Positions 16,426 through 43,734 of a stretch of DNA of 64,000 nucleotides are shown here, one piece after another. Position numbers and translations under genes: made by a program. The DNA is from Clostridiaceae bacterium (lineage in GTDB: Bacteria > Bacillota > Clostridia > Acetivibrionales > DUMB01): assembly GCA_012840085.1 (NCBI GenBank), contig DUMB01000072.1, positions 1-64,000 on the forward strand, in the 5' to 3' direction. Position 1 is the stretch's first letter, and the number at the start of each line of letters is the position of its first letter. Below the pieces are notes generated by a model that made no database searches, was not told the origin of the DNA, and worked only from the letters and a program-made list of their open reading frames with translations.

Positions 16426-16450
16426 GTGCTGAAAGGAAGAATAATATCGG

Positions 16451-17980: not shown

Positions 17981-18317
17981 TCATGGATATTGGACTGAAA
18001 GTCTGTTGACTCCACCCAGTGACGAAGCCCTCAGGTTTGATATTGAAATGACAAAATCTTTTGGATTTCTGCTGGTTTGGGGTGAAATGCTAAGCCCGTA
18101 TGATTTTAATGTAGAGCAGACCCAAAATGTTGTTTCTGAATTTATAGGATTTATTAATAGAGATTATAATCATCCGTCAATTATGGCATGTGTGCCTTTA
18201 AATGAATCCTGGGGAGTAGGAAATATAGTATCTGATAAGATGCAGCAAAATTTTGGCATGTCTTTGTATCATATTGCAAAAGCAATGGATCAAACTAGAG
18301 AGGTAATAAGAAAATAG
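17981..18317 (+). pseudogene. GH2 beta-glycosidase fragment
   Basis: The frame reads GYWTESLLTPPSDEALRFDI then EMTKSFGF, then LLVWGEM, then FINRDYNHPSIMACVPLNES with WGV. These are the barrel landmarks of glycoside hydrolase family 2 (beta-galactosidase/mannosidase/glucuronidase), including the Asn-Glu acid/base pair. The segment normally between EMTKxxGF and LLVW, carrying the RxxH region, is missing, and both ends of the protein are gone. It stands directly upstream of the carbohydrate locus. Confidence 0.85.
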
Positions 18318-18427: not shown

Positions 18428-19498
18428 ATGGAGGCATTTGATTTCAATAAAAGCATGGAATATTTCTGGAAGAACAGGACCATGTACAATGAATCGGTGC
18501 TGATGGTATCCAACGACGGAAAACTGCCAGAAGCAAGTCTGCTTTACAAGCCAACAAAAATAATTTCAGTAAAAAATGCCCGTTTGGATAAAGAATATAT
18601 AGAGAACGTCGATTGGTTTTTTGAGGATGGCAAACTGAGACTTACAAAAAAATCCAGAGCTCCATTTCTAACCCGTGAACAACTCTATCCTGCCGAACCA
18701 AGAGAAGGTTGGACTCTTCCACGTATTGGCGGAGGTTATATACTTTTTCAGGAAGGACATTATTTACATGACATGCAGCTTAGTGTCACATATACTCATA
18801 CTGGAGACCAATGGACGGGGCCTGTACCGGTTTTTAACAAGGCAATGCTTAAGAAAACACTGGCCATCCTGGAAAGAAAAGAGACTTTGAAAATTGTCTT
18901 AAATGGGGATAGCATCTCAGCAGGAGCCAATGCCAGCGGTCTTATGTCAGTGCCGCCTTTTCAGCCGGACTGGGGACATCTTTTTGTACGAAAGCTTGAA
19001 GAGGTTTATGGAGCAAGGATTGAGTTTGTCAATACCTCAAAGGGCGGAGAAACCTCTGACTGGGGAATTCAAAATGTTGATACATTGGTGGCAAATCACC
19101 ACCCGGACCTGGTTATTCTAAATTTCGGAACCAATGATGGTACCTGCAGAATGCCTATAGACAGATATAAAAACAATATTGAAGGAATTATAAAAAAGGT
19201 ACGGAGTGTAAACTCTGATGCGGAGTTTATTCTGATATCACCCCTTATGCCAAATTATCTTGCTGCACTACCCAATAATCCGGAAATCAGCTTCTACGGA
19301 GAACAGGAGAAATATCTGCAGGCTTTGTATGAGATTAAAGAAGACGGAATTGTGGTTGTGGACATTATCAGTATTCACAAGGAACTTCTCAAACATAAAA
19401 AATATTACGATATATCCGGAAACCACGTAAACCATCCTAATGATTTCCTGATTCGTTGGTATGCGCAGGTACTGTGTACAACCTTGATTCAGGATTGA
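18428..19498 (+). CDS. SGNH/GDSL-family carbohydrate esterase
   Basis: 356 residues. An N-terminal beta-sandwich-like domain (about 1-145) precedes an SGNH hydrolase domain: block I NGDSISAG (Ser162), block II KGGETS (Gly), block III FGTNDG (Asn236), and block V GNHVNHPND (His336). This two-domain layout resembles acetyl-esterases that de-acetylate xylan or mannan oligosaccharides (CE2-like). There is no signal peptide, so it acts in the cytoplasm on imported sugar. It is the first gene of the locus; the GH130-type gene follows 32 bases later. Confidence 0.88.
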   Translation: MEAFDFNKSMEYFWKNRTMYNESVLMVSNDGKLPEASLLYKPTKIISVKNARLDKEYIENVDWFFEDGKLRLTKKSRAPFLTREQLYPAEPREGWTLPRIGGGYILFQEGHYLHDMQLSVTYTHTGDQWTGPVPVFNKAMLKKTLAILERKETLKIVLNGDSISAGANASGLMSVPPFQPDWGHLFVRKLEEVYGARIEFVNTSKGGETSDWGIQNVDTLVANHHPDLVILNFGTNDGTCRMPIDRYKNNIEGIIKKVRSVNSDAEFILISPLMPNYLAALPNNPEISFYGEQEKYLQALYEIKEDGIVVVDIISIHKELLKHKKYYDISGNHVNHPNDFLIRWYAQVLCTTLIQD

Positions 19499-19530
19499 TT
19501 TTAATATTGAGTATATAAGGAGAATTAAAA

Positions 19531-20739
19531 ATGAAACCAAAATTTACATATCTTACGGCACCGGCCATTGAACCACAGCCAGGCTGCATGTGGGCAGATA
19601 CAATGGTTTTGAACCCTGCCATTGTAAAGGATCCGGATTCTGATACCATTCACATGCTGTTTAGAGCAACTGGTCCCTGTCCTCACAAAAAAGCCTTTCC
19701 AGGGTGCAGGGATCCGTATCCCATTTTCCTAGGCTATGCTAAAAGCGAAGACATGGGCAGAACCTGGGAAGCTGACTTTTCAAGACCTGCTTTGGAGCCT
19801 TCGGTGGAATACGACAAAGATAAAATATATATAAAGGATGACCAGGGGAATATGGTGATGAATTACACCAATGGATGCCTGGAAGATCCAAGAATATTTC
19901 AGATTGAAGGACAGTATTACGTTACCATTGCCGGTCGCATGTTCCCTCCGGGCCCCTATTGGGATTTGAATCCGGAGGGTGCTGAGAATATACCAGAATG
20001 GGTTGGAAGCGAGGATGATCCAACCGGACTGAAGGACTGTAAGAATACTACTTCTTCAATATATAAATTGGATCTGAAAAGCTTGGCAAAAAAGGACTAT
20101 GCCAATGCATTTCAATACGTTTGCAATTTAACTGATCCACGGGTGGACGATAACAGGGACGTCTTTTTATTCCCTGAAAGAATGTTGATTAATGGAAAGC
20201 TAATGTATGTAATGATCCACAGACCTAATAACCCAAGCAATTTTGAAGCCGGAAAAGGACATACCAAGCCGTCCATCATGCTGGCTGCAGCTGAAAACAT
20301 AAGAGACTTTGCAACAGATAAGGCAATTCATAAATTTCTTGCTGAAGGAATATTTGATTGGGAACAGGAGAGAATCGGAGCCAGTTGGCCTCCAATCAGA
20401 ATCAGTCATGATGAATGGCTCCTGCAATACCATGGCAAAACCATGCCGGGTTATGGGTATACGCAGTCATTTATGATACTTCGAGAAAAGGAGAATGATT
20501 TTCCGGAGATTGTCCACCGCTGCCCCGAAAGACTTATGTATGCGCGTCAGGACTGGGAGATGCCGGATAAGTTTCAATGCCCCTGCATTTTCGCAACCGG
20601 CGGGATTGTTGTGGATGATACGCTGATCATAAGCTATGGAGCTGCCGATCAGAAGGTGGGTGTGGCATGGACTAGCCTCACTGGTATTATTGAGTTCGTG
20701 AAAAGGTTTGATGAAAATGGCAATCTGTTGAAGAAGTAA
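19531..20739 (+). CDS. GH130-type glycoside phosphorylase/hydrolase
   Basis: 402 residues, five-bladed propeller length. Motifs MWADTMVLNPAIV, HMLFRATGP and CLEDPRIF fit the family; the catalytic Asp of GH130 is the one in EDPR (here Asp119). The C-terminal FATGGIVVDDTLIISYGAAD is the conserved last blade. Known members phosphorolyse or hydrolyse beta-mannosides. Intracellular, no signal peptide, and paired with the esterase. Whether it is a phosphorylase depends on phosphate-binding Arg/His residues that I cannot place by eye. Confidence 0.85.
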   Translation: MKPKFTYLTAPAIEPQPGCMWADTMVLNPAIVKDPDSDTIHMLFRATGPCPHKKAFPGCRDPYPIFLGYAKSEDMGRTWEADFSRPALEPSVEYDKDKIYIKDDQGNMVMNYTNGCLEDPRIFQIEGQYYVTIAGRMFPPGPYWDLNPEGAENIPEWVGSEDDPTGLKDCKNTTSSIYKLDLKSLAKKDYANAFQYVCNLTDPRVDDNRDVFLFPERMLINGKLMYVMIHRPNNPSNFEAGKGHTKPSIMLAAAENIRDFATDKAIHKFLAEGIFDWEQERIGASWPPIRISHDEWLLQYHGKTMPGYGYTQSFMILREKENDFPEIVHRCPERLMYARQDWEMPDKFQCPCIFATGGIVVDDTLIISYGAADQKVGVAWTSLTGIIEFVKRFDENGNLLKK

Positions 20740-20827
20740 GGGTAAACCAGCTTATGAAGTATGTGTATTTAACATTTTATTATTTATCGTAATAGTTTTT
20801 TTTACATTTGGAGGAGTAGGTAAAGTA

Positions 20828-22363
20828 ATGGCAAAAGGCACAGTTTATTATGTAGACTCTGTAAATGGAAATGATACCAATAATGGCTTAAGTCCTGAGA
20901 CCCCATGGAAGACCTTTGACCCGGTTAATAAGACCACTTTTAAGCCGGGAGATGAGATTCTGCTTAAGTGTGGAGGTGTATGGAATGAGCAGTTGTATCC
21001 AAAGGGGTCGGGAACTTCAGACTTGCCTATCACCATCAGTTCCTATGGTACAGGCAGCAGGCCAGTTATCAACGGGGGAAGTCTTTCACAGGGTGCAGCA
21101 GTTTATCTATTTAACCAAAGTTACTGGGTTATAGAGAATCTTGAAGTAACCAATGATTCCGGTGTTGACAATTCAGGGACTGCCACAACACCAGGTGTCC
21201 CTCGGTATGGTATTCTCGCTGAGAATGATAGACCTCAAAGCGGCATAACAATTAGAAACAACTACGTTCATAATGTTAACGGAGCATTTAATCTGGTAGG
21301 TATTATGGATGCTCATATTAATGGTGGTATAACATTGCATGCAATAGGGCCTCAAGGCAAGTTTACCGATGTACTAATTGAAGGAAATACTGTGGAGAAT
21401 GTAGGACGCACTGGAATTGTTGCCTGGCAGGATAGATACTACGATAAAGTAGAGACTCAAATTGACAGAGATTTCATGGGAACAGGTTTGATTATAAGAA
21501 ACAATTTTGTTTCCAGGTTGGATAGCGATGGTATCCTTGTTTTTGGTTTTAAGGGATCACTGATTGAGTACAATGTATGCCAATCAGCAGGCTTGAAAAT
21601 GATTGAAGGTTTCAATATGAATTCCTGCGCAGGAATTTGGTCTACCCGGTCTGCTGATACAATTATTCAGTATAATGAGTCTTACGACTGCAGGACAAAC
21701 GACAATATCGACGGGCAGGGTTTTGACGTGGATGTGCTAAGCGACAATACCATAGTTCAGTACAACTATAGCCATCACAACCAAGGAGGCTTCCTGCTGT
21801 TGATGGGTGGGTACAATTCCAATGTTAAGGTCAGATACAATGTCATTGCAAATGAAGGCAACAAAAAAGGGATATTTACTTTTTCCTGGGGTACACCGCA
21901 AAATACCGAAATTTATAATAATACCATTTACATAGGTCCTGAGGACGGTGATGTGAAGGTAATCAACACTGATGGCGATATCAGCACCAATGATTATCAG
22001 TTCAGAAACAACCTGATTTATAATCTTGGAAGTGGAGAGTATAAGCTTCCTCAGATGAACGGTAAAGTGTTTGGTACCTTTGAGCATAACCTGTTTTTCG
22101 GGAATCATCCAGCTACCGAGCCCGCGGACCCATACAAGCTCACTGCAGATCCTATGCTTGTAGAACCTAAAAACTTTGGTACCGGAAGAATAGAAGCAGA
22201 TGGTCTGAAGCTTAAAAAGGGGTCTCCGGCTATAGGAGCAGGCAGTGTCATAAAAGATAATGGTGGTTTGGATTATTGGGGCAATGTGGTATCGGAAACA
22301 GAGCAGCCCAATATTGGAGCATACAATGGAAAAGGAGTTGTGGTTTTGGATTCACAGGACTAA
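20828..22363 (+). CDS. Right-handed beta-helix protein, no signal peptide
   Basis: 511 residues. It opens with YYVDSVNGNDTNNGLSPETP, the start motif of many secreted parallel beta-helix proteins, and contains dozens of IRNN/IEYN/IQYN turns typical of pectate-lyase-like coils, ending in a LKKGSPAIGAG motif. Unlike its tandem partner it starts just before the YYVDS motif with no signal peptide. The frame is open upstream and codes for a hydrophobic run (about 20768-20809) but contains no ATG, GTG or TTG there. GGAGGAG lies 12 bases before the ATG. Probably a polysaccharide lyase-like or binding protein; substrate unknown. Confidence 0.8.
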   Translation: MAKGTVYYVDSVNGNDTNNGLSPETPWKTFDPVNKTTFKPGDEILLKCGGVWNEQLYPKGSGTSDLPITISSYGTGSRPVINGGSLSQGAAVYLFNQSYWVIENLEVTNDSGVDNSGTATTPGVPRYGILAENDRPQSGITIRNNYVHNVNGAFNLVGIMDAHINGGITLHAIGPQGKFTDVLIEGNTVENVGRTGIVAWQDRYYDKVETQIDRDFMGTGLIIRNNFVSRLDSDGILVFGFKGSLIEYNVCQSAGLKMIEGFNMNSCAGIWSTRSADTIIQYNESYDCRTNDNIDGQGFDVDVLSDNTIVQYNYSHHNQGGFLLLMGGYNSNVKVRYNVIANEGNKKGIFTFSWGTPQNTEIYNNTIYIGPEDGDVKVINTDGDISTNDYQFRNNLIYNLGSGEYKLPQMNGKVFGTFEHNLFFGNHPATEPADPYKLTADPMLVEPKNFGTGRIEADGLKLKKGSPAIGAGSVIKDNGGLDYWGNVVSETEQPNIGAYNGKGVVVLDSQD

Positions 22364-22463
22364 AACGTAATAAAAAGTCACGGTAATACATTGGTTCTGT
22401 ATAGCAAGCCGGCAGCTTATAGAATCAGTTCAAATAAAAAATATAAATTTAAGGAGGTTCACT

Positions 22464-24485
22464 ATGAAAAAAAGAGTTCTGAGTTTATTTCTTGTTCTTG
22501 CTATGCTTTTGACATTGCCAACCGGTTTGAAAATGGTACAGGCCAGCAGTAAAGTTTATTATGTAGACTCGGTTTCAGGAAGTGATTCAAACAATGGTTT
22601 AAGCGAAAGTACGCCATGGCGTACCTTTGCAAATGTAAATGCGACGACATTCCAGCCGGGAGATAAGATTCTGCTTAAGTGCGGAGGTGTATGGAATGAG
22701 CAGTTGTATCCAAAAGGGTCGGGAACTTCAAACTCGCCTATCACCATCAGCTCCTATGGTACAGGCAACAGGCCAGTTATCAACGGGGGCAGTCTTTCAC
22801 AGGGTGCAGCAGTTTATCTATATAACCAAAGTCACTGGATTATAGAGAATCTTGAAGTAACCAATGATTCCGGTGTTGACAATTCAGGAACTGCCACAAC
22901 ACCAGGTGTCCCTCGGTATGGTATTCTCGTTGAGAATGATAAACTTCAAAGCGGCATAACAATTAGAAACAACTACGTTCATAATGTTAACGGAGCATTT
23001 AATCTGGTAGGTATTATGGATGCCCATATCAACGGCGGAATATCTGTCCGTGCATCAGGTTTCAATGGTAAGTGGAATAATGTTCTTATTGAAAACAACA
23101 CTGTCCAGAACGTTGGCCGTACAGGAATTGTTGCCTGGCAGGACAGATACTTCTTCCTGAGTCAGACATCCCCGGACAGAGCCTATATGGGTACTGGACT
23201 GATTATACGAAACAACACCGTTTCAAATCTTGACAGTGACGGAATCCTTGTACGGGGATTTGTAGGCTCAGTTATTGAGTATAATGTATGTCAGTCGGCA
23301 GGACTCAAAATGATCCCGGGGTTCGATATGAATTCATGCGCTGGGATATGGCCTTTAGCTTCAGCGGATACAGTAATTCAGTACAACGAAGCCTATGATA
23401 CCCGGTGCAACGATACTGACGGACAGGGCTTTGATGTGGATCTGGGAAATGACAATACAATAGTACAGTACAACTATAGCCATGACAACGAGGGAGGATT
23501 CATCCTTTTGATGGGCGGATACAATTCCAATGTAAAGATACGGTATAATATCAGTCAGAATGAAGGAAATAAAAAGGGTATCTTTACATTTTCATGGGGC
23601 ACACCGGTCAATACTGAAATATATAACAATACGATTTATATTGGTCCGGATTGTGGAGCAGTAAGACCCATCTATACGGATGGTGATGCAAGCACGAATA
23701 ACTATACGTTTAAGAATAATATTATCTATAACCTTGGTTCAGGAGATTATGAGCTTCCGACTGTAAATGGTGTAAAATACGGAACATTTTCACATAATCT
23801 CTTCTATGGAAATCATCCTGAAAATGAACCAGCGGATGCGAATAAGTTAACTTGTGATCCTATGTTTGAGAATCCCGGAAGCGGAGGTATAGGAATAACT
23901 TCTGTTGATGGTTACAAGCTTAAGGAAGGTTCGCCAGCGCTGTCATCAGGAACGCCTATCGCCAATAACGGTGGAAAAGACTATTGGGGAAATATTATAT
24001 CGCCAGGAGAAACACCCAGCAGAGGTGCATACCATGGATCTGGTACCGGCTCCACCGAGAAAACAATAGTTGATACGCTGGATAATTGGAATTACACATA
24101 TTCCCATACCAGCAACATGGTGTTTGATTCCACTAATCCATCCTATTTCAACGGGGATACCTCTAGAGTAAAACGAAGCAATAGCAGCACAGGTAACATT
24201 ATTTACAATTACAGCAATATAAAAACCTTCGTGGCAGATATCTATAAATTCGGTACAACAGACCTGAGCAAGGTTAAGTTCTATGCCTCTCCGGATAATG
24301 TAACCTGGACGCTGGTAAGTACTACGTATACTACACCTGTCTTAACTGAAAATGCATGGTATTCAACTACCTTTACCCCGGTTTCAAATCTCCCGCCGGG
24401 AACAAACTATCTAAAGGTGGAGTTAACGGATTCAAATGCATGGGCAACGCAAATAGGTCAGATGAGCATAACCTGCTCAGATTAA
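22464..24485 (+). CDS. Secreted right-handed beta-helix protein with C-terminal beta domain
   Basis: 673 residues; strong RBS AAGGAGG. Signal peptide MKKRVLSLFLVLAMLLTLP, cleavage near VQASS. The beta-helix (about 30-525) is closely related to the preceding gene. An extra domain of about 140 residues (TLDNWNYTYSHTSNMVF onward) resembles discoidin/F5-8C or similar sugar-binding jelly rolls. One DNA tract near the start is almost identical between the two genes while the rest is diverged. It probably attacks or binds the polysaccharide outside the cell. Confidence 0.9.
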   Translation: MKKRVLSLFLVLAMLLTLPTGLKMVQASSKVYYVDSVSGSDSNNGLSESTPWRTFANVNATTFQPGDKILLKCGGVWNEQLYPKGSGTSNSPITISSYGTGNRPVINGGSLSQGAAVYLYNQSHWIIENLEVTNDSGVDNSGTATTPGVPRYGILVENDKLQSGITIRNNYVHNVNGAFNLVGIMDAHINGGISVRASGFNGKWNNVLIENNTVQNVGRTGIVAWQDRYFFLSQTSPDRAYMGTGLIIRNNTVSNLDSDGILVRGFVGSVIEYNVCQSAGLKMIPGFDMNSCAGIWPLASADTVIQYNEAYDTRCNDTDGQGFDVDLGNDNTIVQYNYSHDNEGGFILLMGGYNSNVKIRYNISQNEGNKKGIFTFSWGTPVNTEIYNNTIYIGPDCGAVRPIYTDGDASTNNYTFKNNIIYNLGSGDYELPTVNGVKYGTFSHNLFYGNHPENEPADANKLTCDPMFENPGSGGIGITSVDGYKLKEGSPALSSGTPIANNGGKDYWGNIISPGETPSRGAYHGSGTGSTEKTIVDTLDNWNYTYSHTSNMVFDSTNPSYFNGDTSRVKRSNSSTGNIIYNYSNIKTFVADIYKFGTTDLSKVKFYASPDNVTWTLVSTTYTTPVLTENAWYSTTFTPVSNLPPGTNYLKVELTDSNAWATQIGQMSITCSD

Positions 24486-24513
24486 TTTGCATGCTTTAAG
24501 GTAAGAGTATTAA

Positions 24514-24543
24514 GGTTCGGCAGGAGATTGTGCCTGCCGGACC
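24514..24543 (+). other. Intercistronic hairpin
   Basis: GGTTCGGCAGG and CCTGCCGGACC form an 11-pair stem with an 8-base loop. No T run follows, so it may shield mRNA ends or weaken read-through rather than terminate. Confidence 0.55.
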
Positions 24544-24577
24544 AAGCTATTTGATAATAGTTAAAGGATGACGGCTT

Positions 24578-25204
24578 ATGAAATGCAATTTAAACAGAAA
24601 AATAATCATTTTAGCAGCAGTTGTTTTGGCGGGACTAATCAGTGCCACTGTGTTTATTAGCGTCAGAAATACCGGGGATCGGATTATTTTCACTGTGGAC
24701 GGTGATCCCGTTACCTACGATGAGTTTATAATGCAGGCTGGCATGGAAAGAGCCAATGTTATCTCCTATTTTCAAAATCAGTATAAAGCACAGTTTACTC
24801 AGGAGTTTTGGAATACGCCTTATGCTGAAGAATATCCTAAAGAAAAGCTGAAAAAAGTGGTTATTGACAAGTTAATACGAACCAAAGTAATAAAAAAACT
24901 GGCCCTTGACTATGGCATTATTTCGGATACAAGCTATAAAAATTTTATTTCCGAAATGAAGAAGGAAAACAAAAGAAGAGCCAAGGCTATAAAAGATAAT
25001 CAGCCGGTGTATGGACCTAAACAGTTCAGTATAGAGGCATATTATTCTTATTATATGAGTACACTGGAAGTTGCGATTAAGAATGCAATGAAAGCCGAAC
25101 CTGATCAAAAGCAGGAAATGTATGAGCAATTATTAGAAGAAAAAATCCGAAATGCAAAAATCGAAATTATGGAGAATGAATTAAGCAGCATTGAATTCAA
25201 CTAG
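24578..25204 (+). CDS. SurA/PrsA-like membrane-anchored chaperone-type protein
   Basis: 208 residues. An N-terminal anchor (about 8-30) is followed by VDGDPVTYDEFIMQAGMERA, the usual opening of SurA/PrsA N-terminal domains, and a long helical region with an EKLKKVVIDKLIRTKVIK motif. The parvulin prolyl-isomerase domain of full PrsA is absent. It lies in the sugar locus just before the regulator genes, so it may help fold the secreted beta-helix proteins; that role is inferred from position. Confidence 0.75.
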   Translation: MKCNLNRKIIILAAVVLAGLISATVFISVRNTGDRIIFTVDGDPVTYDEFIMQAGMERANVISYFQNQYKAQFTQEFWNTPYAEEYPKEKLKKVVIDKLIRTKVIKKLALDYGIISDTSYKNFISEMKKENKRRAKAIKDNQPVYGPKQFSIEAYYSYYMSTLEVAIKNAMKAEPDQKQEMYEQLLEEKIRNAKIEIMENELSSIEFN

Positions 25205-25275
25205 GGTGTTTGATTTTTAAATCATCATGTAATAGAATAATATATGTGCCCAAAATATGGTTCGGGGGTAAATAT

Positions 25276-26553
25276 ATGCTGACAATGTTGATTGTTGATG
25301 ATGAATACCTAGTAAGATTAAGGATCAAAGAGACCATCGACTGGCAGCAATATGGGGTTGAAATAGTGGGAGAGGCTGCTGACGGTGAAGAGGGCTTGAG
25401 CCTAGCACTTCAGTATAAGCCGGAAATTATCATAATGGACATGCGCATGCCGTTTATTGATGGCATGGAGTTGATGAAGGGAATAAGGGAAAACCAGCTT
25501 GGATCAAGAATTATTGTGTTGAGCGGCTATAATGATTTTGACTATGCAAAGGCAGCCGTGGATTATGGCGCTGATGCATACCTGCTGAAACCCATCGATA
25601 ATAAACATTTGATTGAGACCGTTCTAAAAGTCAAAGACAAAATCAAGCGCGAAAAGAGTACCACTCAGTATATTGAAAAATTAAAAAAGGAAATGTCCTC
25701 CGTCAAAAAACAATTGCTTCGGGACCTGCTGAAAGGGAATGTTACTGATTATATGGAGATACAGGAAAAAATCCAGCTCCTTGATTTGCCACTTGAGATG
25801 AAACATAACTATGTTATACATATTCGTATAGACCGCTTTAAATGGATGCTGGAGCAGCAGGCACAGACCGGAATTTTCAGCACCAAAAATGCTATTGGAG
25901 ATTGGATTGCCAGGAAGCTTCTGATAAGCTCCTTTTATATCGGGCTGATGGTAGATGTGACAGATGATGCGTGGACAGTCATTGTCCATCCGTTCAATAC
26001 GGAAAATCCGGATGAAACAATCAAACTCATCAAAGAGAATTGTCGGAAAATGACCGATGAATTGACCGAAGAATTTAAGCTGACCTTTTCTGTAGGAATA
26101 AGCAGAATGAGTGAGGGCCTGGATACTTTGAATGATGCGTATTTGGAGGCTGTAGAGGCTTCAAATATAAAGCTTTTATCAGGCTTAAACAGCATTGTAT
26201 ACAAGGGAGATAATGAATTAACCGGCTACCGAAGGGAAGTAATAGAGGCAATCAAGTATATAAAGAATAACTATTTTAAAGATATTTCCGTAGAGACGGC
26301 TTCCAAAGCATTATATATCAGTCCTTCCTACCTGATGCACCTATTTAAGGATGAACTGGGAAAGACCTTTAATGAATGTCTGACCGAATGCAGGATTGAA
26401 ATGGCAAAGGAGCTTTTGAAGGATCCCGAAAACAGAATGTGTGATATTTGTGTTAAGGTGGGATATAATGATGTTAAGTATTTCAGGCGTGTTTTTAAAA
26501 AAATTACTGGCATAAATCCCAGCGATTATGTGAGGTTGAAAAATGAGAACTAA
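25276..26553 (+). CDS. YesN-type response regulator with AraC DNA-binding domain
   Basis: 425 residues from ATG 25276, preceded by GGGGG; earlier in-frame starts lack this. Receiver domain (1-120) with Asp8-Asp9, phospho-acceptor Asp55 in IIMDMRMP, and the Lys in YLLKPID. A middle region (about 125-310) precedes an AraC double helix-turn-helix (about 320-425: ALYISPSYLMHLFKDELG and VGYNDVKYFRRVFKKITG). The gene overlaps the kinase gene by 11 bases, so the two are translated together. It probably activates the sugar-import and degradation genes on either side. Confidence 0.95.
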   Translation: MLTMLIVDDEYLVRLRIKETIDWQQYGVEIVGEAADGEEGLSLALQYKPEIIIMDMRMPFIDGMELMKGIRENQLGSRIIVLSGYNDFDYAKAAVDYGADAYLLKPIDNKHLIETVLKVKDKIKREKSTTQYIEKLKKEMSSVKKQLLRDLLKGNVTDYMEIQEKIQLLDLPLEMKHNYVIHIRIDRFKWMLEQQAQTGIFSTKNAIGDWIARKLLISSFYIGLMVDVTDDAWTVIVHPFNTENPDETIKLIKENCRKMTDELTEEFKLTFSVGISRMSEGLDTLNDAYLEAVEASNIKLLSGLNSIVYKGDNELTGYRREVIEAIKYIKNNYFKDISVETASKALYISPSYLMHLFKDELGKTFNECLTECRIEMAKELLKDPENRMCDICVKVGYNDVKYFRRVFKKITGINPSDYVRLKNEN

Positions 26554-28306: not shown

Positions 28307-28310
28307 AATG

Positions 28311-29291
28311 CTATTTTTGCATGCTTTCGTAAAGTCTTGTCAAAGGGTAAATGATACTTTTTGACAGAATTTTTATCAGTAAAAAAGATACCAGTACAAA
28401 AGAAAATCCTAGTACAAGCAGTACCGTGATTAGAGTACCAAGCTGTGAATTGAGATCAAGTGGTGTCACTATAACAACTGTATCACTTGAATTTGGAATA
28501 GGGTAATAGGTAATAATACTTTTTCTGTTTTTCTCAATAGTATATGAGCTATCCATGAAGGGTGGAATCATGTTTATGTCTGCCAATTGTAATCCTATAC
28601 CTAATGGAGGATTATAGGGAGATGTGAGAGTTTTTTTATCGGATGTAATTATGTAAATGCTTGATTTATTATAAAACATGCCACTATCGTCTGGTTTGTA
28701 AAAATCATAAATGGAATTTATATTTGTATCAACAAATAAATAGCCTAAAGACTCTCCATGATTGTTTTTAATGCAAATAGCACAGGTGAAAATTCCGGTT
28801 TTTGAAACAGAATTGTAGTTGTAAAAACTTGGAATGTCTTTGGTCCGGACCATCCAGTAGGAATTTTTCTCAGCGAGCTTATTAAGGAAATGAAAGTTGT
28901 CTTTGACTTTTTCAAACTTCGGAGCGTTATATGTATTACTTGAAAGGTATAGTATTCCATTACTGCCATAGACAGTAACACCTAAGATATTCAGATTGGA
29001 AGCGCGTAAACTGTCCAAAAGAGGAATTACCTTATCACTGAAATCTGTTGTTTCAAGACTTTCCTTAATCACAGGATTTTCTGAAATAAGCCTGGAGGTT
29101 TCTTCAATCAGGTTCATATTTAGCCTTAAATTTTGGTTTTGCTGCTTTATATGCTGCTGGGACAGCTGAACCGAATGGTCGTATATATTTTTTCTTATGG
29201 TCAGATTAACTGTTAATGAGTTTATCAAAGCAGCCATTATAATGATAATTATTAAAAAAACTTTTATCTTTCTTTCTAATGCGATAAACAA
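28311..29291 (-). CDS. Stand-alone Cache sensor protein without kinase
   Basis: 326 residues. Helix at about 8-28, an extracellular dCache-like domain (about 30-285: LGVTVYGSNGILYLSSN and GYLFVDTNINSIYDFY), a second helix (about 287-310) and the first 15 residues of a HAMP-like coil, then a stop (YESMQK). The architecture equals the front half of a YesM-type kinase with no histidine or ATPase part. The stop is followed at once by the convergent kinase gene, so no hidden continuation exists on this strand. It may be a truncated kinase or a decoy/co-sensor of the neighbouring kinase. Confidence 0.8.
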   Translation of the reverse strand: MFIALERKIKVFLIIIIIMAALINSLTVNLTIRKNIYDHSVQLSQQHIKQQNQNLRLNMNLIEETSRLISENPVIKESLETTDFSDKVIPLLDSLRASNLNILGVTVYGSNGILYLSSNTYNAPKFEKVKDNFHFLNKLAEKNSYWMVRTKDIPSFYNYNSVSKTGIFTCAICIKNNHGESLGYLFVDTNINSIYDFYKPDDSGMFYNKSSIYIITSDKKTLTSPYNPPLGIGLQLADINMIPPFMDSSYTIEKNRKSIITYYPIPNSSDTVVIVTPLDLNSQLGTLITVLLVLGFSFVLVSFLLIKILSKSIIYPLTRLYESMQK

Positions 29292-29445
29292 GTTAACCTC
29301 CCTGGTACGCTTAGAAAATACGTACGTATAAAGTTAATTACAATAAGAAAGAAATGCTGCCATATTCTCATTATAATGCTGCCCTTTTCTATTTGCAACA
29401 GAAACAGAACCCCCACGCAAAAACAAGTAGTTTTGTACCCCTTTT

Positions 29446-29490
29446 AGCAGAATAGTGTTTCTAGTTATTCAAAATTTGTGATGATATAAT
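29446..29490 (+). promoter_or_regulatory. Promoter region of the sugar importer
   Basis: A perfect -10 box TATAAT lies at 29485-29490 without a good -35 box, which suits an activator-dependent promoter. The motif AGCAGAATAGTGT at 29446-29458 ends 26 bases upstream of it and is the same as at 18336-18348. A palindrome ATACGTACGTAT at 29318-29329 lies nearer the opposite gene. Confidence 0.5.
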
Positions 29491-29571
29491 GAAAACATAG
29501 TACGGATCCGTAAACTTTATAAAATTTTCCTATGTCAACCCAAAGATAATTAAAAAGGAAGTGGAGTCAAT

Positions 29572-31029
29572 ATGGTTAAAAGATTAATATCTTTAATGTT
29601 AATGGCTTTCATGTGTATTTCAATGATTGCAGGATGTTCAGGGAACAAAGCAAGCGAATCAACAACTTCAGTTCAGACGACGACAGCAGACACAGATGCT
29701 GCTGACAATACAAATACCAGCGACGAGCCAAAACCGGTTACAATTACAGTAAGCAATTGGCCAAAAGGCGATGATGAAGCAAATACAAAGCTTTATGCAC
29801 AATATGTTGAGACAATGAAACAGAAATATCCTTATATTACTATACAGGGTGAGGAATGGAGCTATGATGTGAATTCCTTCCTTCCGAAGGCTGCCAGCGG
29901 ACAGCTTCCAAATCTGTATGACACCTATTTTACTGAGGCATCCAAGATTATTGAGGGCGGATACTCAGCGGATATTACTGATATTGTAAAAAAATATAAT
30001 TATGATAAAACCATGAACCCAGATATGCTGGCACTTGTTACGAAGGATAACAGGTATTACGGCTTGCCCCAGGGCGGCTATACAGTAGGTTTGATGTATA
30101 ATGTCAACGTATTTAAGGAAGCAGGACTTTTGGATGAAAAGGGAGTTCCCAAGTTCCCGAGGACTTATGACGAGCTTGCTCAGACAGCTCAGATAATTAA
30201 GCAAAAGACAGGAAAGCCGGGCTTCTTCTTCCCAACGAAAAATAACCAGGGCGGCTGGATGTTTATGAACATTGCATGGGCTTATGGTGCAGAATTCGAG
30301 AAGAAGGTGGACGGCAAGTGGAAGGCGGTATTTAACAGTCCGGAAGCAGTTGCAGCGTTGCAATATGTAAAAGACCTGAAGTGGAAATACGACGTACTTC
30401 CTGAAAACAACCTGGTTGAGGTTGCCGATTTAATGGGCTTGATGGGGACGGATCAAGTTGGCATGGCATTCGGTGCGTTGGGCTGGGTACCAATGATTAT
30501 AACCAATACAAAGATGAGCAAGGATGCCATAGCCATGTCACAGAACCCTGCGGGGCCTAAAGGTGTTGCGACTGTCTTGGGTGGATCAATCTTTATGTTT
30601 GCACCCCAATCTACTCCTGAACAGTTGGATGCATGCATCAAGTGGCTTGAGGTTTCGAAGGGCTTCTCACCTATTGTTACGGACGAAATGAAGCAGAACT
30701 TTGAGGCAACAGCAAAAATCAACAATGAGCAGGGTCTTGTTGTTGGTCCGCATGACATGCGTGTATGGGTTGATCCTGAACGTGTCGCTGCGGAAGATGA
30801 AATTCTCAAAAAGTATCAAAACGTTAACATGGATTTGTGGAATGATTATGTAAATAACTCTACTAAAGGAATGCGCCCTGAAGAACCAGTTCTCGCACAG
30901 GAACTTTATAAAACATTGGATACAGCTATTCAGTCTGTATTGACGGATAAAAATGCAGATCCTCAAGAAATACTAAATAGATTGGTTGAAACCTTCCAGA
31001 GAGATTACCTGGATAAAGTAGCGCAATAA
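29572..31029 (+). CDS. ABC sugar importer: extracellular solute-binding lipoprotein
   Basis: 485 residues; RBS AAGGAAG. Lipoprotein signal with lipobox MIAGC (Cys22), a Thr/Ser/Asp linker, then a type I (family 1) solute-binding fold: VTITVSNWPKGDDEANTK start and YGLPQGGYTVGLMYN hinge region. It captures an oligosaccharide outside the cell and hands it to the two permeases that follow. No ATPase is encoded here, so a shared MsmK-type ATPase elsewhere is expected. Confidence 0.95.
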   Translation: MVKRLISLMLMAFMCISMIAGCSGNKASESTTSVQTTTADTDAADNTNTSDEPKPVTITVSNWPKGDDEANTKLYAQYVETMKQKYPYITIQGEEWSYDVNSFLPKAASGQLPNLYDTYFTEASKIIEGGYSADITDIVKKYNYDKTMNPDMLALVTKDNRYYGLPQGGYTVGLMYNVNVFKEAGLLDEKGVPKFPRTYDELAQTAQIIKQKTGKPGFFFPTKNNQGGWMFMNIAWAYGAEFEKKVDGKWKAVFNSPEAVAALQYVKDLKWKYDVLPENNLVEVADLMGLMGTDQVGMAFGALGWVPMIITNTKMSKDAIAMSQNPAGPKGVATVLGGSIFMFAPQSTPEQLDACIKWLEVSKGFSPIVTDEMKQNFEATAKINNEQGLVVGPHDMRVWVDPERVAAEDEILKKYQNVNMDLWNDYVNNSTKGMRPEEPVLAQELYKTLDTAIQSVLTDKNADPQEILNRLVETFQRDYLDKVAQ

Positions 31030-31054
31030 CGAGGCACTATAAATATATCACAAG

Positions 31055-31075
31055 GGGAGTGGTTGAACCACTCCC
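31055..31075 (+). other. Hairpin between binding protein and permease genes
   Basis: GGGAGTGGT, TGA, ACCACTCCC: a perfect 9-pair stem, 25 bases after the binding-protein stop and without a T run. Such stems commonly stabilise the upstream mRNA, so that the binding protein is made in excess over the permeases. Confidence 0.75.
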
Positions 31076-31104
31076 TGAAGCAAACTATTGGAGGAAATTG
31101 GAAC

Positions 31105-32046
31105 ATGATCAAAGAACAGTTGGGCAATCAAAACAGCCCACTTAACGTTAAAAGGAGTATCAGAACCACTCTTGCTGCAATTAAATTGAATACTGCAGCA
31201 TGGTTACTGCTGATACCAAGTCTGATTAGCTTTATAATCATTGTATGGATGCCTATGATTTCAGGTATTGTTCTCTCGTTTTTTGAAACAAAAGGTTACG
31301 ATGCGGTTAAGTTCGTAGGACTGAGAAATTTTATCGATGTAATACAGGACTCGGAATTTAAAAGCACACTGCTTAATACGGTATCATATACCGTTTGGTC
31401 ACTTATCATCGGATTCTTATTTCCAATTTTTGTAGGAATCCTATTGAATGAAATGATTCACCTTAAGGCATTTTTTAAGTTTTCCGTATATTTTCCTACA
31501 ATAGTTCCTGGAATTGCATGTTCTCTCCTATGGTCCTTTATGTTTGACCCGGGAAAAGGAGGGCTTCTCAACTCACTGTTAGCTCAGCTGGGATTGCCTC
31601 AGTCGTCATGGCTGCAAAATCCTAAGCTCACAATACCATTGATTGTCACAACTATGACATGGAAAGGGTTTGGCGGTACATCACTTATTTATTTAGCTAG
31701 TCTGCAGGGCATCAATCAGGAATTGTATGAAGCTTCCATCATAGACGGAGCAAGCGTTGTTCAGCGTATCCGCTATATAACATTGCCGCAGATTGCCAAC
31801 ATAATATTACTTATGCTTATCATGCAGATTATAGGTGTTTTTCAAGTAATGGCCGAGCCGTTGACTATGACTGACGGAGGTCCAAACAATGCATCAACAA
31901 GCCTGATGCTGCAGAGCTATTTTTATGCCTTTAGATATTTCAGGGCGGATAAATCCATGGCTCTCGGTGTAATTACATTCGTAATGCTTGCTTTACTTAC
32001 GGTAATTTATCAGTTATTTAGCAAGAAGGCGACTTTGGACGAATAA
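31105..32046 (+). CDS. ABC sugar importer permease 1
   Basis: 313 residues from ATG 31105, behind GGAGG; an in-frame upstream reading would start inside the hairpin. Six transmembrane helices and the inner-membrane EAA loop ELYEASIIDGASVVQRIRYI then LPQI near residues 220-245 mark a MalF/UgpA-type permease. It pairs with the following MalG-type gene to form the channel. Confidence 0.95.
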   Translation: MIKEQLGNQNSPLNVKRSIRTTLAAIKLNTAAWLLLIPSLISFIIIVWMPMISGIVLSFFETKGYDAVKFVGLRNFIDVIQDSEFKSTLLNTVSYTVWSLIIGFLFPIFVGILLNEMIHLKAFFKFSVYFPTIVPGIACSLLWSFMFDPGKGGLLNSLLAQLGLPQSSWLQNPKLTIPLIVTTMTWKGFGGTSLIYLASLQGINQELYEASIIDGASVVQRIRYITLPQIANIILLMLIMQIIGVFQVMAEPLTMTDGGPNNASTSLMLQSYFYAFRYFRADKSMALGVITFVMLALLTVIYQLFSKKATLDE

Positions 32047-32060
32047 GGGAGGTAAAATTC

Positions 32061-32954
32061 ATGGCTAAGTTAGAAGAAAAACATACAGGAATTATAAATT
32101 CCATAGAAATGAAAAAGACAAAATATAAGATGGTGTATTGGATTTTATTTCTTCTCATGGTTTGCATTTCGCTGATATGTCTGCTGCCTCCCGTATGGAT
32201 TCTTTTATCCAGTATGAAGGATATCAAGGAATTTTACAAAATACCGCCAACAATTTTACCGGAGACTTTTCAACCGGAAAAACTCCTCGAGACCTGGAAT
32301 AAATTGAAGTTTATCCGTTATTATATCAATACACTTGAGTTGGCTGCAGGTTGTGTGGTATTTTCGGTTGTTATAAACGGTCTTGCTGGATATGTTTTAT
32401 CCCGGCTGAAGCCAAAGGGGAGCAATTTTTTTCTTTCCCTTATGATATGGACAATGCTGATGCCAGCCTCTTTAAGTTTGGTACCATTATTTAAGACAAT
32501 GATCAAGTTCCCTATTTTCGGGTTTAATTTGACAAATACATATATCCCTATGTGGCTTATATCCGGAGCCAGTGCATATTTTGTACTAATTTTTAAGGGA
32601 TTTTTTGATAGTATTCCGGTGTCGCTTTTAGAAGCTGCCCGTTTGGACGGTTGCGGGAATTTTAAATTATTTTATAAGATTATTGTACCATTGAGCAAGC
32701 CTATTATCGCCGTGGTATCCATTTTTACCATAAACAGCGCCTGGGGAGATTTTCTGATGCCTTACCTGATAATCAAGAATCCGGAGAAATACACAGTAAT
32801 GGTAAGAATATTTACAATGCGCGGTTCGGTCGGTTTTGCACTGGATATCCAGATGATAGCGTTGGTTTTTGCCATCATCCCGCCGATTATTCTGTTTTTG
32901 ATCTTTCAGAAGCACATCATGCACGGCTTTACTTTAAGCGGCATAAAGGGGTGA
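32061..32954 (+). CDS. ABC sugar importer permease 2
   Basis: 297 residues, RBS GGGAGG. MalG/UgpE-type: the first helix is followed by PPVWILLSSMKDIKEF, and the EAA loop is LLEAARLDGCGNFKLFYKI then IVPL (about 197-220). Six helices. It starts 14 bases after permease 1 and ends 7 bases before the phosphorylase gene; the four are one operon. Confidence 0.95.
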   Translation: MAKLEEKHTGIINSIEMKKTKYKMVYWILFLLMVCISLICLLPPVWILLSSMKDIKEFYKIPPTILPETFQPEKLLETWNKLKFIRYYINTLELAAGCVVFSVVINGLAGYVLSRLKPKGSNFFLSLMIWTMLMPASLSLVPLFKTMIKFPIFGFNLTNTYIPMWLISGASAYFVLIFKGFFDSIPVSLLEAARLDGCGNFKLFYKIIVPLSKPIIAVVSIFTINSAWGDFLMPYLIIKNPEKYTVMVRIFTMRGSVGFALDIQMIALVFAIIPPIILFLIFQKHIMHGFTLSGIKG

Positions 32955-32961
32955 TTGAACT

Positions 32962-35220
32962 ATGTTTGGTGAATATATTGTATCCGATCCCCTTCAGAAG
33001 AAATATCAGGACAATTTTCTGTTTAATGAACGATTTTTTTCCTACGTTACACATACGGGGATGGGATATTCAAGATATACAGATGAAAATGATTATACAA
33101 CGAATATCATTCATGGAACCATTGACAACCAGCAGTATGAACACAGTCGAATGGTTTATATAAGAGACAATGATACAGGAGAGTTTTGGTCCGTGGGCTG
33201 GGAACCGGTCTGCAAGCCTTACGAAAAATATGAGTGCAGACTCGGATATAACTATACTACCATCACTAACTTAACCGTTGGTGTAAAATGCAAATGGACC
33301 ATTCTAGTGCCCCAGGGAAGGGATCCTGTGGAGCTTTGGAATGTGGAAATAGAAACAGATATACCAAGAAATCTAAGTGTTTATCTGTATTCTGAGCTTT
33401 CGCTGCTAACCACTATTCCTACCTATGGACATGACGGATACATGAGCGCAGCATACAACCCTCTAATCAACGGTATCACCGTGAAAAAAAGTGCCCAGGC
33501 CTTAATTGATAAGCTGAATTCAATTTCCGTTATACCTTCCCGGAAGCCAGACTATTACACTTGCAGCCGATTTGACTTTATGGGCTTGTACAGGACAGCT
33601 GCAAATCCTTTGGGACTTGTAGAAGGTAAGCTTCCAAATTCAATTGCTTCGAAGGAGCGGATTTGCGCTGCTTTCCAGTATAACTGTATTGTGGAAGGAC
33701 AGTTTTCTGTGAATCAAATGATCATTGGACATCACAGTGGGCAGGATCTAACAGGTGCCATAAATAAATACAGCGATTTTGATAAGATTTTTATGGATAC
33801 CGTTGGTTCAATAAAGGACCGGTTCAGAAAATTGCTTATCAAAACGGGTGATGTATCATTGGACACCATCACAAATACATGGAACAAGCAGCTGATCCTA
33901 TTTGGGGCAACTCATTGCCGGTGGGGGATAAAAGGTTTCCGGGATGTGGTACAGCACGCCCAGGGAGTGCTGTATTTTGACGCGGAGCTTACAAGAAAAA
34001 GCCTGCTTAAGTCGCTTCAGTTTCAGTATTCCAATGGATTTGCAGTCAGGTCCTACCCCGTTGTCTATGAGGATTCAAAAATGCATTACAGTGACAGTGC
34101 TTCCTGGCTGCTTTATGCTGTTTCAGAGTATGTGAAGGAAACCGGCGATACAGATTTTCTGAAAGAGGAAGTCTCTTTCCTTGACGGTGGAAAGGCAAGC
34201 GTTCTCAAACATATGGAACTTATTATTCATTCATTGTATCAGGATCGTGGCGAGCACGGTTTGGTACGGATCCACGACGGAGACTGGAATGATTCTCTTA
34301 CTCATGTAGGAAGAGAAGGGCGTGGAGAAAGTGTATGGCTTTCCATGTTTCTTGCCAAGGGCCTGCTTATATATGCTGAGCTTTTGGAATTTCTGGGGCA
34401 GGATGCAAGAGATTATTATTCCATGTATGAAAAACTCAAGCACGACATTAATGAAAATGCATGGGACGGAGAATGGTATATACGTGCCTTTAATGACAAG
34501 GGAGGCAAACTGGGTTCCAAAGAGAATGAAAGAGGCCTGATATTCCTGAATACACAGTCCTGGGCCATTATTTCAGGTGTAGCAGACCAGGAGAAAATAG
34601 ATTGTATACTCAAATCCATTAAAAGATACCTTTATACAGATTATGGCTATCTTTTAAACTATCCCACATACACTTCATTGGACGAAAATGTGGGACGAAT
34701 GAGCTGCATGGAACCTGGAACAGCGGAAAACGGATCAGTCTATATACACGGCAATGCATTTCTCATCTATGCTTTACTGGGCATAGGATATAGTGAAGAT
34801 GCGTATAAAATATTAAAATCCATTCAGCCGGATAACCCCTTATTGGCTGATAAGCCAGTTTGCCCGTATATATACGGCAACTGCTACTATGGTCCGGATC
34901 ACAAAAAGGAAGCAGGAAAAATGGAGTTCAGTTGGATTACAGGCTCGGCGAACTGGCTGCTGCAAAGTATTGTTGAACTAATGCTGGGAATCCGGAGAAC
35001 CTACGAAGGACTTGTGATTGAGCCTATGCTTCCGGAAGAATTAAAGCAGGTTGAGGTTTACAGGGAATATCGGGGCTGCAGATACCATATTGAGATAAAA
35101 AATAACGGCAAAAATGTAAAAAGTATTACACTGAACGGAGTAGTGCAGGATCCTCTCAAAGCACTTCCTATAATGAAGAATAATGAGACAATCAACCGGG
35201 TTCAGGTTGAAATGGAATAA
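32962..35220 (+). CDS. GH94-type disaccharide/oligosaccharide phosphorylase
   Basis: 752 residues, slightly shorter than cellobiose or chitobiose phosphorylases (about 800). Family landmarks: N-terminal beta-sandwich, WGIKGFRDVVQHAQGVLYFD, the catalytic-acid loop DGDWNDS (Asp441) and the phosphate-binding end region near SCMEPGTAENGSVYIHGNA. It would split a beta-linked sugar with phosphate, giving sugar-1-phosphate and saving ATP. No signal peptide: it acts on what the importer brings in. The exact disaccharide cannot be told from sequence. Confidence 0.9.
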   Translation: MFGEYIVSDPLQKKYQDNFLFNERFFSYVTHTGMGYSRYTDENDYTTNIIHGTIDNQQYEHSRMVYIRDNDTGEFWSVGWEPVCKPYEKYECRLGYNYTTITNLTVGVKCKWTILVPQGRDPVELWNVEIETDIPRNLSVYLYSELSLLTTIPTYGHDGYMSAAYNPLINGITVKKSAQALIDKLNSISVIPSRKPDYYTCSRFDFMGLYRTAANPLGLVEGKLPNSIASKERICAAFQYNCIVEGQFSVNQMIIGHHSGQDLTGAINKYSDFDKIFMDTVGSIKDRFRKLLIKTGDVSLDTITNTWNKQLILFGATHCRWGIKGFRDVVQHAQGVLYFDAELTRKSLLKSLQFQYSNGFAVRSYPVVYEDSKMHYSDSASWLLYAVSEYVKETGDTDFLKEEVSFLDGGKASVLKHMELIIHSLYQDRGEHGLVRIHDGDWNDSLTHVGREGRGESVWLSMFLAKGLLIYAELLEFLGQDARDYYSMYEKLKHDINENAWDGEWYIRAFNDKGGKLGSKENERGLIFLNTQSWAIISGVADQEKIDCILKSIKRYLYTDYGYLLNYPTYTSLDENVGRMSCMEPGTAENGSVYIHGNAFLIYALLGIGYSEDAYKILKSIQPDNPLLADKPVCPYIYGNCYYGPDHKKEAGKMEFSWITGSANWLLQSIVELMLGIRRTYEGLVIEPMLPEELKQVEVYREYRGCRYHIEIKNNGKNVKSITLNGVVQDPLKALPIMKNNETINRVQVEME

Positions 35221-35241
35221 ATTAAAGGGGCTGAATGAAAA

Positions 35242-37302
35242 TTGAAAGACAAGTTTTTTATTCCCGGCAACTATGTACCAGTCAGCGAGTTTTTTTTATC
35301 AGGATCGGAACTTCGCATTCCTTTGACACTCCTGGACTTTGTAAGAGAGAGGCAGCAACAAATTCGCGTAGCGTATTGGGATGGTTTCAATACAGAGCTG
35401 CTAAAACCGGACAAGATGGATTTGGAGCAGGGGACTATCGGATTGAGTTATAAAAAGAGTGGTATATTCACAGTTGTGCTAGATACTTTGATAAATGATT
35501 TTCCTGTAGTTACCCATTGGAATGCACAGCTTAATAACAACAGAGGCGGGTTTTGCCTGGGTGCTGCCGACGGAGTTGGAAAGCTTGACATTGACCTGAA
35601 TACCGATACTGTAATAAATGAGAAGCCTATATATGATAAAAATTTGGAAAGCCCCTATACATTTTTATCAGACAAATATATGTTTTTTTCGGGAAAAAGC
35701 CTTAATCTAAAAGTGCCGGGATATGAGCGGTATATTGGGGAAAATTACAGCCTGTTTCAAGTTACCGATGCACTTGCCCTGTGGTTGTCAGTAAAGACAC
35801 TTAAGGATACAGGCTATCCCGTCATCTATAAAAACTACCCTCAATTTGAATTACAGGAGAATATACCAGCTTTTCAGGTTGTCAGTAATTTCATTATTGC
35901 CAGTAATAAAGAAACACCCAGTTTGGCTACTTTCATTTTGCCACCTTATTGGCAAGCCGGGAAACAAAATAAGTATCCTGTTTTATTCAGTGGTTTTTAT
36001 GACAGCAACGAGAATATGTTTCAAACCATAGGGCCATCCGTTCTTAAGGTTATTGGAAATGTAATGAAGAAGACAAGTAAGGCTGTGATAGGGGTTATTT
36101 GGAACGGAGGAGGATCAATTGGAGCCAGAACCTTTCAGTATTCTGCCTTCCACAATCTTTCGGAGTTGTTCAGGACTGCTGCAAAGGAGTTTTCAGGAGA
36201 TCCCGGCAGCATCGTGGCAGTAGGGGGCTCCCGTGGAGGAATCACAGCACTTATAGCTGCGGGCAATTCTTATCATAATAATTACAGAATAAAATATGCG
36301 GTTTGTTATAATCCCATAGTACGCTTTGGAGAAAATGACTGGGAGGTGCCAAACCCTACATGTCCGCTGGTCTATGCAGCAATCAGCGAAGATACGGGTT
36401 ATAAGCTGGCATGGATGAGAAGCTGGAGGGATCCGGTATATGGTTTAAGCGGGCAGAAACTCTTTTTAAACAATCTCTTCGGCACCTGTGACAGGTCTAT
36501 TGCCAATGAAGTATTATGCCCGTGTTCAAAACAGTTCGCTAAAACAATAGCTGAAAAGGGTACAAAGGTGTTTTTAGCAGTAGGTACCCATGATGCTTTC
36601 GCCACAAAGGATGGTATCATAGACTTTGCAGAGCTTTTGATTAGCTGTGGGGTCCAGGTTCATCTTCAGTTTGGCTACAGATTCGGACACAACAATGCAA
36701 CGAATCTGTATGATACGGCAGAGGACTTTTTATGTGATATTATTCTTGGAAAGGAAAAGAAACTTTCCGGGATAAGCCATTACCGGAGAATCAGCAAAGA
36801 TGCAGCAGAGTGGGAAAAATCAGAACAGTTTTTTCCGGAACGGCAGCCGGCATTCTTTGAAGGTCCCAAGAAAGCTGCTCTAGGCGATAAGGCTGTTATT
36901 AACATAGTTGGAGCAGCTGGCATGGCCTACATTCTGAAACTGTATAAAATCGATGATCTTGCATGGATAGAGCAAAAGCAAGCCATCATCGTTGATGAAG
37001 GGAGAATACTCTTTGAGGGAGTCCTGAATGAAAAAACACAGCACCTGGAGGGTATATCCTATTTTAAGAGTATGATTGAATTTGATGGTTCTTATGTAGA
37101 AGGCTTCTATTTATATGAGTTCTGCCATACCCAAGGGGATACAATGAAGTGGGTAAAAGTACCCTTTGAAAATGTACCTCAGCCGGGAGTTGAAACCTAT
37201 CCGGTATTGGAGCTTTTAAAGCATTATCCTGCAGTCAGCGGACTTGAAATGGCAAAAATGCAGGATGTGAAAGCCATTGGGTGGGGATTAAGTGATGTTT
37301 AA
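35242..37302 (+). CDS. Large alpha/beta-hydrolase, probable sugar esterase
   Basis: 686 residues. The start is a TTG 11 bases after GGGG; an ATG 7 bases earlier is in another frame and soon stops. An N-terminal beta domain (about 1-225) precedes an alpha/beta-hydrolase core with nucleophile elbow GGSRGG (Ser330), an Asp in VGTHDAF (about 455) and a His in RFGHNN (about 481). A C-terminal beta domain follows. No signal peptide. Its place as last gene of the import operon suggests it removes an acyl decoration from the imported glycan. The family is not one I can name. Confidence 0.8.
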   Translation: MKDKFFIPGNYVPVSEFFLSGSELRIPLTLLDFVRERQQQIRVAYWDGFNTELLKPDKMDLEQGTIGLSYKKSGIFTVVLDTLINDFPVVTHWNAQLNNNRGGFCLGAADGVGKLDIDLNTDTVINEKPIYDKNLESPYTFLSDKYMFFSGKSLNLKVPGYERYIGENYSLFQVTDALALWLSVKTLKDTGYPVIYKNYPQFELQENIPAFQVVSNFIIASNKETPSLATFILPPYWQAGKQNKYPVLFSGFYDSNENMFQTIGPSVLKVIGNVMKKTSKAVIGVIWNGGGSIGARTFQYSAFHNLSELFRTAAKEFSGDPGSIVAVGGSRGGITALIAAGNSYHNNYRIKYAVCYNPIVRFGENDWEVPNPTCPLVYAAISEDTGYKLAWMRSWRDPVYGLSGQKLFLNNLFGTCDRSIANEVLCPCSKQFAKTIAEKGTKVFLAVGTHDAFATKDGIIDFAELLISCGVQVHLQFGYRFGHNNATNLYDTAEDFLCDIILGKEKKLSGISHYRRISKDAAEWEKSEQFFPERQPAFFEGPKKAALGDKAVINIVGAAGMAYILKLYKIDDLAWIEQKQAIIVDEGRILFEGVLNEKTQHLEGISYFKSMIEFDGSYVEGFYLYEFCHTQGDTMKWVKVPFENVPQPGVETYPVLELLKHYPAVSGLEMAKMQDVKAIGWGLSDV

Positions 37303-43707: not shown

Positions 43708-43734
43708 ATATAGCAAAAAAAATATAGAAAAGCG

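Follow-up and report, generated by a model that had tools for sequence, protein, structure and literature searches.

The locus described here spans positions 18428-37302 of a 64,000-nt window (positions 1 to 64,000 of contig DUMB01000072.1, Clostridiaceae bacterium assembly GCA_012840085.1; G000:C62 in our numbering, where G000 is the source genome itself and L and C numbers denote fetched stretches and contigs) and probably encodes a glycan-scavenging system built on GH136-type enzymes. It is organized as two plus-strand blocks. The first (18428-28306) contains genes for an SGNH esterase, a GH130-type enzyme, two beta-helix proteins (BH1 and BH2), a LnbY-type protein and the regulators YesN and YesM; the second (29572-37302) contains genes for a solute-binding protein (SBP), two permeases, a GH94 phosphorylase and a 686-aa hydrolase. 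Intergenic gaps inside both blocks range from -11 to 100 bp, and these two operons are split by a reverse-strand dCache gene (28311-29291). An initial annotation of this DNA had described a coherent import and phosphorolysis locus under YesM/YesN control; the gene set and the positions of all its open reading frames (ORFs) were confirmed, and the calls for the GH130-type and GH94-type enzymes, the permeases and YesM/YesN were supported by Pfam. The LnbY-type ORF (24578-25204) was not mentioned in that annotation.

Both beta-helix proteins, BH1 (20828..22363, + strand) and BH2 (22464..24485, + strand), are matched by LnbX, the NCBIfam lacto-N-biosidase profile (4.2e-30 and 1e-31, respectively); BH1 consists of the catalytic domain only and BH2 also has a C-terminal domain. 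BH2 matches the lacto-N-biosidases in the PDB at 1.6e-44 to 3.8e-29 (7v6m 1.6e-44, 6kqs 3e-35, 5gqc 1e-33) and Pfam Beta_helix at 2e-11. At the family level, the domain of BH1 and BH2 is homologous to LnbX/ErLnb136II, and the catalytic Asp pair, which in ErLnb136 comprises the acid/base D568 and the nucleophile D575 (PMC7335108), is retained as DGQGFDVD in both. A pectin- or mannan-type lyase or hydrolase identity was rejected for these proteins, their best matches being GH136. The two copies share 75% protein identity over their shared length, with a dN/dS of 0.16 and a dS of 1.2, which points to purifying selection on both. The initial annotation had taken both for extracellular beta-helix proteins, missing their GH136 identity; the extracellular location holds for BH2, the only one of the two with a clear, intact signal peptide, but is doubtful for BH1, whose start codon, ATG 20828, opens the protein without a signal peptide. 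Just upstream (region 20750-20830), a stretch in the BH1 frame resembles a signal-peptide hydrophobic core, but a frame change interrupts it, ATG 20754 being in another frame; either secretion of BH1 was lost or the assembly contains an error.

In ErLnb136, residue W548 stacks on the galactose of lacto-N-biose (PMC7335108). We placed W548 (6KQS) as the second Trp of IWPW, using the offset of the published catalytic residues. At this position BH1 has Thr, BH2 has Leu and the copy on contig C76 of the source genome has Ile; the Trp is kept in all the solved lacto-N-biosidases aligned and in the protein of the GH112 locus on contig C71. Because the galactose-stacking Trp is lost in BH1, BH2 and the C76 copy, the product released by the GH136-type enzymes of the window is probably not lacto-N-biose. 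An ordinary locus for lacto-N-biose or mucin O-glycans, as the GH136 and LnbY homologues might suggest, is thus very unlikely: besides the loss of this Trp in both copies, no locus protein matched GH112, the GH112 gene of this genome lies beside another GH136 gene (C71), and cleavage of Gal-beta1,3-GlcNAc is not known for GH94 or GH130 enzymes.

The protein encoded downstream of BH2 (24578..25204, + strand), which is membrane-anchored, matches the NCBIfam profile of the lacto-N-biosidase chaperone LnbY (NF047894, E=2.5e-18), and the GH136-type genes are thereby adjoined by a GH136I/LnbY-type partner. Characterised enzymes depend on their LnbY/GH136I part for activity, and this part forms some of the active site (PMC7335108); the subunit was published as a previously unknown fold. 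The window protein also shows SurA_N Pfam matches and 31% identity to the protein adjoining the GH136 of C71; a PDB sequence search with it alone gave nothing useful. In its AlphaFold model (pLDDT 89), 96 residues superpose on the GH136 domain I of 6KQS (2.7 A), with a weak Z of only 3.5, whereas SurA, PpiD and PrsA superpose better (Z 6.8-8.4). The parvulin domain is absent from the window protein and present in its C71 and C76 homologues.

Two further loci of the source genome served as controls. The first (L096, G000:C71:42001-62000) contains YesN, SBP, permeases, GH112 (PF09508, 648 bits), a GH136-type enzyme, a LnbY-like protein with parvulin domain, GH29 and a PfkB kinase, which by gene content is a canonical lacto-N-biose layout. 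The second (L098/L124, G000:C76:93001-127000) contains YesN, YesM, SBP, two permeases, GH29, GH94, a LnbY-like protein and a GH136-type enzyme, the GH94, LnbY-like and GH136 genes being consecutive on one strand; the genome thus associates GH94 with GH136-type enzymes at two places, the window and C76. The next ORF of C76 is a 3138-aa frame with GH136-type repeats, GH29, F5/8-type segments, an SGNH-like esterase segment and S-layer-type repeats (SGNH and S-layer assigned by eye). Thus C76 resembles the window in its YesN/YesM, SBP, two permeases, GH94, LnbY-like and GH136-type genes and in the SGNH-like segment of its giant surface protein, and differs in having a cellobiose-phosphorylase-like GH94 (40% identity to cellobiose phosphorylase, CBP), GH29 fucosidases, the S-layer-type multi-enzyme protein and no GH130. 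GH136-type genes have a LnbY-like gene as neighbour in L096, L098, L100, L101, L117 and L118, and two of four short GH94 genes adjoin GH136-type genes. Taken together, the LnbX and LnbY profile identities, the PDB matches to GH136, the retained Asp pair and the C71 and C76 controls favour a GH136-type system. At title and abstract level, the literature on GH94 together with GH136 gave incidental co-mentions only. A further GH94 gene of the source genome (L097, G000:C36:8001-23273) adjoins GH127 and a 1372-aa GH141-like beta-helix protein.

The GH94 enzyme of the window (32962..35220, + strand; PF17167, 6.9e-81) shares the catalytic fold and the general acid Asp of chitobiose phosphorylase (ChBP, 1V7V), cellobionic acid phosphorylase (CBAP, 4ZLE) and CBP, and retains the conserved active-site residues (R333, R349, D350, W490, D492, E637, H644, T709 and G710 in ChBP numbering). 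It is 28-30% identical to each of these three enzymes, ChBP being the best single solved relative. At the specificity position it has Met where ChBP has V631, CBP Tyr and CBAP Lys613. The region around ChBP 627-644 resembles CBAP, with Arg at its Arg609 and Met at its Lys613, two residues that we take to be the binders of the acceptor carboxylate in CBAP; the motifs GR(M/V)(S/T) and AENGSVY are common to the window enzyme and 4ZLE. As the enzyme is equidistant from the three and lacks a matching specificity residue, its assignment as a chitobiose, cellobionic acid or cellobiose phosphorylase was rejected. Its sole relative at 41% is L010 (JAUWOV010000029.1), with which the tree groups it on long branches flagged as unsafe by the tree tool, and no further members of this lineage were found in 397 other genomes of the phylum (E<=1e-112). 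This GH94 is thus predicted to be an undescribed phosphorylase of a rare, deep lineage. The neighbours of the L010 gene encode a GH4 enzyme, a 400-aa protein and dehydrogenases.

The second phosphorylase-type enzyme (19531..20739, + strand) belongs to GH130 by Pfam (PF04041, 1.1e-17, residues 213-392; 64.4 bits against a cutoff of 26); the motifs EDPR, NRD, HRP, YHG and YGAAD are retained in a divergent sequence with extra insertions, and EDPR, RP, YHG and YGAAD do not vary among its relatives. Of its phosphate-binding basic residues, those of NRD and HRP are kept and the third has no certain alignment position. Its closest solved relative is a 1,2-beta-oligomannan phosphorylase (8e-16), and its matches to 1,4-mannan enzymes are weak. 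The last point bears on a possible use of acetylated beta-mannan or glucomannan oligosaccharides: a GH130 enzyme, esterases and an importer lie together here, in a manner that presumably resembles the beta-mannan loci of Roseburia, such as that of Roseburia intestinalis with its GH130 phosphorylases, two esterases and importer. However, the extracellular enzymes of the window are GH136-type and not mannanases, the mannanase Pfam families have no match among the locus proteins, and the GH130 is divergent, which leaves this explanation quite unlikely. The mannan- or pectin-side-chain substrate suggested by the initial annotation is likewise not supported, given the GH136-type enzymes, the lack of a mannanase or pectinase in the locus and the distance of GH94 from characterised enzymes.

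Use of the N-glycan core, with GH130 as a Man-beta1,4-GlcNAc phosphorylase and GH94 as a chitobiose phosphorylase, would agree with ChBP being the best single solved relative of GH94, with the Met found at ChBP V631 instead of the Tyr of CBP, and with the existence of such GH130 activities (PMC8950772). Nevertheless, GH94 is only 28-29% identical to ChBP, about level with CBAP and CBP, the GH130 matches the N-glycan enzyme 4udg weakly (5e-8), no endoglycosidase was found in the locus, and the esterases would be left unexplained; we regard this as highly improbable, and the least probable of the alternatives considered. The view that GH130 and GH94 side by side are an uncommon mix proved weakly true: a GH130-like gene lies near GH94 in 6 of the 80 GH94 loci fetched, which ruled out the pairing as a rare signature. 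These six loci (L062, L071, L076, L079, L081 and L031) come from Bacteroidota, Ignavibacteriota, Aminicenantes, Calditrichota and Lokiarchaeota metagenome-assembled genomes, the GH130-like gene being directly downstream in three.

Regarding the two candidate esterases proposed initially, the first one stood. The SGNH/GDSL protein (18428..19498, + strand), which has a ~140-aa N-terminal domain, matches Lipase_GDSL_2 (PF13472) at 2.9e-18 (67.4 bits, cutoff 32.9), its best PDB matches are GDSL esterases and TesA, and the GDSI, GGETS, GTND and HVNHP blocks are visible; by inspection it has no signal peptide, and it is a candidate cytoplasmic deacylase. The second, a probable alpha/beta-hydrolase of 686 aa (35242..37302, + strand), reaches the Pfam Esterase profile (PF00756) only below threshold (8e-4; 19.6 bits, cutoff 22), has a GGSRG nucleophile motif near Ser330 and gave an uninformative structure model, made without an alignment, with pLDDT 36; the protein is rare, as samples of 290 other genomes from the class and 397 others from the phylum contained no homologue. 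Esterases also lie beside GH136-type genes elsewhere, in C76 and in genome G705, where an AXE1 acetyl esterase gene and an importer operon precede a GH136-type gene. Given these and the cytoplasmic SGNH esterase of the locus, an acylated substrate is plausible; in this respect the acylated beta-linked oligosaccharide proposed earlier survives, without its mannan or pectin-side-chain type.

The importer comprises a solute-binding lipoprotein (29572..31029, + strand; PDB sugar-binding proteins to 5.6e-15, NCBIfam carbohydrate SBP 2.6e-07) and two permeases (31063..32046 and 32061..32954, + strand; both PF00528, BPD_transp_1). No ABC ATPase is present among the locus proteins, and the genome's single OB_MalK (MalK/MsmK-type) ATPase is encoded on another contig, where about 4-6 kb around the gene contain no permease; an SBP with two permeases and one orphan ATPase elsewhere is the arrangement of MsmK-sharing importers, as had been proposed. 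By Pfam, the regulators are a response regulator with receiver and AraC helix-turn-helix domains (YesN-type, 25210..26553, + strand) and a histidine kinase with HAMP, His_kinase and HATPase_c domains (YesM-type, 26543..28306, + strand), encoded by overlapping genes.

We consider it fairly likely that this locus encodes a system which releases a glycan fragment outside the cell by GH136-type enzymes, imports it and phosphorolyses it inside; GH94 and GH130 would take the place of GH112, and the substrate is probably not lacto-N-biose. Judging from homology, secreted BH2, and possibly BH1, would cut a larger glycan to release a disaccharide or a short oligosaccharide, the membrane-anchored LnbY-type subunit folding or completing the glycosidase. 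The SBP and the two permeases would then import the sugar, driven by the single MsmK-type ATPase of the genome, and the cytoplasmic SGNH esterase, perhaps with the 686-aa hydrolase, would remove acyl groups. Following the mechanism of their families, GH130 and GH94 would finally cleave beta-linkages with phosphate to give sugar-1-phosphate; YesM/YesN probably turn the genes of the locus on.

As a design, the system is most likely a variant of the lacto-N-biose pathway. Like the GH136-GH112 pathway of Roseburia/Eubacterium and Bifidobacterium longum LnbX/LnbY (PMC7335108), it combines a beta-helix enzyme having both Asp residues, a LnbY-type partner, an importer with shared ATPase and a cytoplasmic inverting phosphorylase. 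Unlike that pathway, the window has GH94 and GH130 in place of GH112, an added esterase, two catalytic copies and no galactose-stacking Trp, and its partner protein is related to PrsA foldases without the parvulin domain of those foldases. The glycan consumed therefore probably differs from that of the human-milk-sugar pathway and is possibly acylated.

Several observations weigh against this proposal. BH1 and BH2 score 104 and 109 bits against a cutoff of 2500 for the full-length LnbX equivalog, and BH1 could be an intracellular protein or a miscalled gene. The Trp at W548 is missing, too, from GH136-type genes without GH94 nearby, so its loss reads as "not lacto-N-biose" and not as "GH94 substrate". 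Moreover, GH136-type genes occur in 8 of 58 genomes of the order, and outside the source genome none has GH94 in the fetched stretches. Finally, the dCache gene (28311..29291, - strand; PF02743, 4e-12) encodes a transmembrane sensor fragment without a kinase domain, whose alignment to YesM stops where HAMP begins; the end of the gene is 4 bp away from the stop codon of YesM, and it is thus a probable truncated YesM-like sensor at a rearrangement junction. Its place between the operons suggests that the GH130/GH136 half and the importer/GH94 half are separate operons joined secondarily.

Alternatively, rearrangement would have placed side by side two unrelated sugar operons with different substrates, one being SGNH-GH130-GH136-LnbY-YesNM and the other importer-GH94-hydrolase, which would have lost the sensor it once had. 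The truncated gene lying exactly between the halves would agree with this, and the closest GH94 relative, L010, has neither GH136 nor GH130 nearby. Nevertheless, C76 has GH94, LnbY and GH136 genes in a row, and each half of the locus, taken alone, lacks either a releasing enzyme or an importer; we thus consider two unrelated operons unlikely. The locus is genuine and coherent in type, best described as a release, import and phosphorolysis system, although its two operons may have been joined recently.

In the cited literature GH136 comprises lacto-N-biosidase-type enzymes only, tied to human milk and mucin glycans. In the source genome the GH136 enzyme-plus-chaperone module is coupled to other phosphorylases and its sugar pocket is changed. 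From this we predict a GH136 specificity and a GH94 phosphorylase that have not been described before, and recombinant protein would allow both to be assayed. Tentatively, and with somewhat less than even confidence, we propose that GH136 and its LnbY-type partner diversified beyond lacto-N-biose, releasing a different and probably acylated disaccharide for cleavage by a GH94 of new specificity, and that the partner may descend from a PrsA-type foldase, this genome holding parvulin-bearing (C71, C76) and parvulin-less (window) forms. The LnbY/GH136I subunit would thereby be offered a sequence link to PrsA/SurA-type foldases.

With respect to the surroundings of the locus, a search for a plasmid origin in its left half gave no match. 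A short GH2-like fragment, apparently a decayed gene, lies just 5' of the SGNH gene (18006-18317), and a fragment further upstream (16426-16740) resembles, by eye, a transposase integrase core. On the other side of the locus, a T-box leader (43726-43974) precedes an ORF at 44012, and group II intron segments are found at 51923-53750.

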